From assembly GCA_020002265.1 (NCBI GenBank), contig CP048228.1:620001-684000 (forward strand): a stretch of 64,000 bases of DNA. The letters are read 5' to 3'. The notes beneath the pieces are model-generated. The model ran no database searches. It was not told the DNA's origin and saw only the letters and a program-made list of their open reading frames with translations. Position 1 is the first letter of the stretch; every line of letters begins with the position of its first letter. The translations under genes were made by a program, and so were the position numbers. This stretch comes from Anaplasmataceae bacterium AB001_6 (GTDB lineage: Bacteria > Pseudomonadota > Alphaproteobacteria > Rickettsiales > Anaplasmataceae). Below are positions 29,966 through 31,515 of the stretch, piece by piece.

Positions 29966-31515
29966 ATGTCTGATAAACCTAGTGGAATGAAAAGATGGCT
30001 TTTTTCAACAAATCATAAAGATATAGGGACTTTGTATCTTGTATTTTCTATATTTGCTGGTTTGATTGGGGGACTTTTTTCTGTATTGATACGAACTCAA
30101 TTAATGCAGATTGATATATTGAATGGTAATTATCAATTCTACAATGTTATCGTAACAGGACATGGTATAATAATGGTGTTTTTTATGATAATGCCTGCAT
30201 TAATAGGAGCTTTTGGAAATTGGTTTTTACCATTAATGATTGGCGCTCCTGATATGGCATTTCCAAGATTAAATAATATCAGTTTTTGGTTATTGTTTTT
30301 TTCCTTTATATTGTTGGTAATCGCTGCTTTAACGGGGGAAGGTCCTGGAATTGGATGGACTGCTTATCCTCCTTTAAGTGGCAATATTTCTCATCCTGGT
30401 GCTGCTGTTGATATTGCAATATTCAGCTTACATTTGGCGGGATTATCGTCAATATTAGGAGCAATAAATTTTATTGCGACCGTTATAAATATGAGAACCA
30501 TTGGAATGTCTATGTTTAGAATGCCACTTTTTGTATGGTCAATATTCATAACTGCTTTCATAATAATATTTGTGATGCCAGTTTTAGCTGGAGCTATCAC
30601 CATGATCTTAACTGATAGAAATTTTGGAACAAATTTCTTTAATCCTGCCGGTGGAGGGGATCCCCTACTTTTTCAGCATTTGTTTTGGTTTTTTGGTCAT
30701 CCAGAAGTATACGTAGTAGCTTTACCAGCATTTGGTATTATTAGCGAAATCATATCCACTTTTTCTCGTAAACCGATATTTGGATACTCTGGTATGGTGT
30801 TTGCAATGATAGGAATAGGTGCTTTGGGTTTCATAGTATGGGCTCACCATATGTTTACAACTGGAATTAGTTTAAATGCAATTGCATATTTTAATTTAGC
30901 AACGATAATAATTGGGGTGCCTACAGGAATAAAAGTTTTTAGTTGGCTCGGTACGATGTGGGGTGGCAGTATAGAATTTAAAACACCTATGTTATTTAGC
31001 ATGGGTTTCATAGCTCTTTTCGCAATAGGAGGAGTAACCGGTATTGCATTATCAAACGCAGCTTTAGATAAAATGCTGCACGATACTTATTATGTTGTTG
31101 CCCATTTTCATTATGTAATGTCTATAGCAATACTTTTTGCAGTATACGCAGGATTTTATTATTGGATAGGGAAAATAAGTGGTAGACAGTATAAAGAAAT
31201 TTTTGGAATAATACATTTTGTTACCTCTTTTATAGGTGTAAATATTACTTTTTTCCCACAATTTTTCTCTGGTCTATCCGGTATGCCTAGAAGAGTACCC
31301 GATTATCCTGATGCTTTCATTCCTTGGATTATATTTCTTCGATTGGGGCTTTTATATCATTTGCATCAGCGTTATTTTTTATATTTGTAGTATGGCATAC
31401 TCTGAAAAAAGGAAAAAAAGCTGGTAATAATCCTTGGAATGCAAAAACTTTAGAGTGGACTTTATCTTCTCCACCTCCTTTTCATTGCTTTGATGAAAGG
31501 CCAGAAATAAAATGA
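29966..31515 (+). pseudogene. coxA: Cytochrome c oxidase subunit I, reading frame broken near the 3' end
   Basis: The heme a/a3-CuB catalytic subunit of the terminal oxidase. From the ATG at 29966 ([24 protein letters not shown]) the frame reads through the heme and CuB ligands ([45 protein letters not shown]) to DYPDAFIPW. It then leaves the family sequence after codon TGG at 31325-31327 and stops at 31390. The expected continuation ([18 protein letters not shown] through [11 protein letters not shown]) is present in another frame up to the TGA at 31513-31515. One missing base, most simply an A after 31327, explains this. It removes the last membrane helix and tail. Whether it is a sequencing error in an A/T-rich stretch or a true mutation cannot be told here. 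The intact downstream frame argues for an error or a very recent change. Confidence 0.88.

Follow-up and report, generated by a model that had tools for sequence, protein, structure and literature searches.

The coxA gene of Anaplasmataceae bacterium AB001_6 is interrupted near its 3′ end by a single frame break. The most likely source of this break is a sequencing error or a mutation of very recent date, not a new mechanism. It is established that the break is present in the assembly, that it is the only one among the genes examined, that relatives do not share it and that constraint on both sides of it is near normal. On balance, and with modest confidence, we think that the assembled sequence is wrong by one base here, and that the gene, for an aa3-type cytochrome c oxidase, is otherwise ordinary and functional.

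Results

Position and extent of the coxA frame break

The window, meaning the whole stretch of DNA that was analyzed, comprises 64,000 nucleotides (positions 620001-684000) of a single contig of 1,013,119 bases that is 95% complete. All coordinates without a genome label are those of the window. The genes coxB, coxA, and ctaB lie head to tail. coxA, which encodes subunit I, starts at ATG 29966, while the mechanical open reading frame begins earlier, at TTG 29951. Its first-frame part (29966-31327, forward strand) covers positions 1-428 of 436 of the COX1 profile and 1-443 of 504 of the NCBIfam CtaD_CoxA profile (TIGR02891), the latter with 633.7 bits, under the cut-off of 670.75. Family likeness ends at the motif DAFIPW, whose Trp codon occupies 31325-31327. 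By frame translation, an out-of-frame tail of 20 residues and a stop codon (31388-31390) follow at 31328-31390. The remainder of the protein, consisting of the last transmembrane helix and the C-terminal tail, is encoded in the next frame on the same strand (31330-31515, with TGA at 31513-31515), and covers positions 446-504 of 504 of TIGR02891. This downstream frame of 61 residues is open from 31312 to its TGA, the preceding in-frame stop being at 31309-31311. Coverage of the family profile is therefore divided between two frames, and no single open frame in this assembly spans it. When proteins from three relatives were used as tblastn queries, the second coxA piece began at 31327 with all three. 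The break is thus as an earlier note on this DNA had described it, with family likeness up to the Trp codon, an out-of-frame stop, and the rest of the protein open to 31515.

Judged by its matches, the downstream piece is more than a chance resemblance, since on its own it matches CtaD_CoxA with an E value of 9.8e-15 and the C-terminus of solved subunits I with E values of 7e-16 (for residues 495-556 of subunit I in 1m56, 7.3e-16). In 1m56 numbering, the last coxA Trp corresponds to about residue 493, by equal-length offset, and the downstream part begins at 495. From the helix position in 1m56, we take the break to fall at the start of the last helix. The histidine motifs TGHG, GHPEVY, HH, and HFHY, which we take to be the motifs bearing the metal ligands of subunit I, all lie 5′ of the break, as had been proposed. 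The further suggestion that a truncated protein would keep its catalytic core holds as far as the motif positions go, but the 20-residue tail offers no credible membrane helix. Its best 19-residue hydropathy mean is 0.75, versus 2.2 in the relatives' frame, and it is unlikely to serve as a replacement helix. A spare second copy of coxA is ruled out by the single match to PF00115 (heme-copper oxidase subunit I) in the genome.

The break is not shared by relatives

The note had also recommended comparison with coxA of related strains. We compared coxA with 109 relatives, 29 of them loci from whole genomes and 80 from genome contigs; the nearest are genomes of the Anaplasmataceae type, and the best three named matches were a Rickettsiales MAG, a Wolbachia, and Candidatus Xenolissoclinum, at 69-72% identity. 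A pattern covering both coxA parts fits one frame in 107 of the relatives. Another relative, L058, has Phe instead of Trp, yet its coxA is continuous, and L065 was excluded because it runs off its contig. Both parts thus lie in one frame in 108 of 108 testable relatives and none shares the break, although these rows are not independent and may include the same or close species. This rules out a programmed shift common to the group. In addition, all 32 same-family relatives searched have a coxA that stays open in one frame for at least 518 residues. The proposal that one added A would restore an Asn codon agrees with the alignment, in which AB001_6 lacks exactly one column, occupied by Asn in 108 of the 109 relatives and by His in one. 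In the codon view, which counts 18 of 32 loci (the other 14 gave no pattern, being on the minus strand or not fitting it), the lost place starts with an AA pair in these 18 relatives.

Constraint on coxA

The downstream segment has 61% identity to 32 near relatives, compared with 58% (sd 7) for 223 pairs of relatives with similar upstream identity, and so has not drifted. Its 12 highly conserved columns are all unaltered. Upstream of the break, 8 of 172 highly conserved columns are altered, a count above that of 31 of the 32 near relatives (range 0-7). Xenolissoclinum, which is similarly isolated and has a one-frame coxA, has 9. The 8 deviations could reflect slight relaxation or merely an isolated lineage, and they count mildly against full constraint on coxA. 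In a relative-rate comparison of 50 genes, the identity of the upstream part to one relative (G004) was 0.7 points above that of other relatives, ranking 44th of 50, whereas the average over the 50 genes was 4.8 points below. By this measure, the upstream part of coxA is less diverged than most genes compared. No further stop or indel was found in coxA beyond the single break, and its sequence gives no clear sign of decay. The absence of other frame damage, together with the conservation of the downstream segment, rules out an old pseudogene. An aged break should leave more traces, so the break is either not in the cell's DNA, very young, or bypassed.

Neighboring oxidase genes

Each of the other aa3 genes examined (coxB, ctaB, ctaA, coxC, and ctaG) occupies a single frame. 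coxB (29099-29932, forward strand) encodes subunit II of cytochrome c oxidase and matches COX2, COX2_TM, and TIGR02866 (206.9 bits, cut-off 147.7). ctaB (31512-32423, forward strand) encodes heme O synthase (TIGR01473, 227.6 bits, cut-off 210.3). Its ATG at 31512 overlaps the TGA of the coxA downstream frame as ATGA, in agreement with the earlier reading, and an ATG, of whatever gene, is found no more than 12 nt from the coxA stop at 24 of 32 loci in relatives. ctaA/COX15 (6679-7704, forward strand), encoding heme A synthase, reaches 292 bits with PF02628 (cut-off 29.9) and 228 bits with NF045570, under the cut-off of 550. The description of the operon as otherwise intact therefore stands at the level of reading frames, but ctaB is unusually diverged. 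It has 36% identity to G004, versus an average of 54% for two other relatives, and is the third most diverged of the 50 genes. This divergence may hint that the demand for heme A has relaxed. A malonyl-CoA decarboxylase gene with both N- and C-terminal domains is also present (27571-28926, reverse strand), in a reduced genome of the Anaplasmataceae type.

Frame breaks elsewhere in the assembly

We surveyed 400 kb in 20 spaced stretches together with the window, 464 kb of 1,013 kb in all (46% of the genome), using as queries the open reading frames from stretches of four relatives (about 1.58 Mb); the survey covers only genes matched there. The 204 conserved gene places (206,593 nt) contained a single frame break, that in coxA. 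Proteins from three of the four relatives revealed it; the stretches of the fourth (G022) are without coxA. In the same test on the relatives themselves, candidate sites, which may include alignment artefacts, numbered six in G018 (195 kb), one in G004 (184 kb), one in G022 (139 kb), and none in G009 (182 kb). Two of the six in G018 are apparent frame breaks within one stretch (L138:12314-13589).

The assembly looks good over the 464 kb examined, and a poor assembly full of frame errors is ruled out for this part by one break in 204 gene places. At about one break in 200 kb, its rate falls within the spread seen in the other genomes, and this neither proves nor excludes an error. Other seeming gene splits in the window, at 39115-40998, are separate genes for a cytidylyltransferase, uppS, and frr.

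Discussion

What kind of break is this? The earlier note had left three options. Sequencing error and recent mutation both fit, since the break is unshared and single and both of its flanks are conserved. The third, programmed or transcriptional slippage, finds little support, for reasons given below. If the break is a one-base error, the reading that we consider probable, the cell's DNA would be without it and the organism would make full-length subunit I from one frame. Several lines of evidence support an error. All 108 testable relatives have a one-frame coxA and the lost column is almost always Asn. The downstream segment has not drifted, and most genes are more diverged than the upstream part. 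The other aa3 genes are unbroken, and the start of ctaB overlaps the stop of the downstream frame. Antonov et al. 2013 expect a break to be a sequencing error, not a genuine indel, when it is unshared and confirmed by BLASTp (PMC3711429). Lorv and McConkey 2025 associate deletion errors in long reads with homopolymers of two to eight bases, most of them following four to five (PMC12007338), and the AA pair at the lost place in the 18 relatives of the codon view is such a run. Other observations count against an error. With only one break in 204 gene places, errors are rare in this assembly; the place of the break is not a long homopolymer; relatives show similar rates (zero to six sites per 139-195 kb), so that real breaks may be as dense; and the upstream part deviates at the 8 conserved columns. 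If the break is an assembly error, the record should be flagged: coxA would be annotated as a pseudogene, which might suggest that aa3 respiration has been lost.

It is also possible, though we hold this only tentatively, that coxA of this strain, or of part of its population, has lost its function through a very recent one-base deletion. The consequence, which we put forward just as tentatively, would be that subunit I without its last helix cannot assemble and that the cytochrome bd quinol oxidase carries respiration. Recent loss of aa3 is a live rival, since cydA and cydB are both present in one frame each and the cell could, on paper, do without coxA. Matches to cydA occur in 17 of 53 relatives in all, and in just 5 of the 32 same-family relatives, two of them in pieces. 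Loss of aa3 has a precedent in the order: 4 of the 53 relatives are without a typical coxA (G041 and G046 have none; G047 and G048 have only a distant one, with 43% and 40% identity), and all 4 have cydA, compared with 13 of the 49 that have a typical coxA (Fisher p 0.008, kinship ignored). The divergence of ctaB and the 8 upstream deviations could likewise both mean a relaxed need for aa3. The two cydA matches in pieces belong to one genus (G007:C9:31919-33095, with stops, and G032:C1:1018383-1021624).

However, a second frame defect was found neither in coxA nor among the remaining aa3 genes examined, the conserved downstream columns are unchanged, and ctaB is still over its family cut-off. 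Xenolissoclinum has 9 upstream deviations despite its one-frame coxA. Moreover, every one of the 32 same-family genomes searched keeps coxA in a single open frame. In this family the oxidase usually missing is bd. If the deletion is real, it would mark an early switch of oxidase to cytochrome bd in a family that, in the genomes examined, mostly lacks cydA and keeps coxA.

We consider it very improbable that the break is real and stable and that a working subunit I is made across it, through a -1 shift or as two polypeptides, although a recoded or split CoxA would be the sole reading of wider interest. Slimmer still are the prospects of a -1 ribosomal shift at the heptamer T_TTT_TTA (31375-31381, forward strand), or of RNA polymerase slippage on its six T, reaching the downstream frame before 31388. 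The two frames overlap from 31312 to 31387, and the heptamer is the sole site of the form X_XXY_YYZ in this overlap. It is in the coxA phase, 6 nt before the stop, and a shift there would lead into the right frame. Rescue by slippage at long A runs has been reported, in excerpts of one study, for other AT-rich endosymbionts (PMC5009743), and an excerpt of another reports ribosomal rescue of a broken plastid atpB at an oligo-A stretch (PMC8254509).

Nevertheless, the heptamer is probably accidental. Any X_XXY_YYZ site occurs in 36%, and T_TTT_TTA itself in 3.1%, of 13,057 overlapping 25-codon stretches from 28 long open reading frames of the window. The six-T run is explained by coding, since 8 of the 18 relatives in the codon view write the Phe-Phe at this place as TTT TTT. 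RNA 3′ of the heptamer folds no better than shuffled sequence (z 0.94, in a model without pseudoknots), and a ribosomal shift would place 17 wrong-frame residues, including Arg, His, and Gln, in the last helix. As for the polymerase, between 31300 and 31400 there is no run of A or T of about 9 or more, the longest being the six T. In a survey of E. coli and Buchnera, transcription insertions increase exponentially as runs lengthen, up to 9 nt in E. coli and up to 11 in Buchnera; the survey detected no transcription error restoring a reading frame (PMC5574713). Slippage is therefore little supported, as none of the 108 relatives shares the break, the longest run is six T, no stimulatory RNA structure was seen in the folding, and wrong-frame residues would enter the helix. 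Counting both strands, the window holds 222 copies of TTTTTTA, versus 137 expected from dinucleotide-preserving shuffles.

It is barely conceivable that CoxA is naturally split into an N-terminal protein (474 residues) and a peptide of about 61 residues with a start of its own, the two assembling together like mitochondrial Cox1 and Cox1C: excerpts of two papers describe eukaryotes with an early-ending Cox1 and a separate Cox1C (PMC12699882, PMC7403612), and the downstream piece here is likewise one helix plus a tail, but the only ATG, GTG, or TTG in the downstream frame between 31312 and 31450 is TTG 31324, located before the break, by eye the 20 nt 5′ of it hold nothing like a ribosome-binding site, and none of the 108 testable relatives is split at this place.

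How does coxA compare with known systems? Cytochrome c oxidase subunit I of the aa3 type (CtaD/CoxA; TIGR02891, PF00115) shares its sequence, its coxB and ctaB neighbors, and its histidine motifs with the gene described here, which differs in that two frames are needed in this assembly and its first frame falls short of the family cut-off. Mitochondrial cox1 fission (Gawryluk and Gray 2010, as cited in excerpts of PMC12699882 and PMC7403612) also parts a C-terminal piece from subunit I; there, by the same excerpts, the piece has its own nuclear gene, whereas no new start signal was seen in coxA. The slippage-rescued frameshifts of insect endosymbionts, as far as excerpts of PMC5009743 describe them, resemble coxA in having a single-base break in an AT-rich, reduced genome. 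coxA differs in that its longest run is six T and lies 47 nt 3′ of the break. Finally, the singleton frameshifted prokaryote genes of GeneTack, as presented in excerpts of PMC3711429, are like coxA in that an unshared break in a conserved gene is confirmed by relatives, and against those excerpts we found no feature that sets coxA apart from them.
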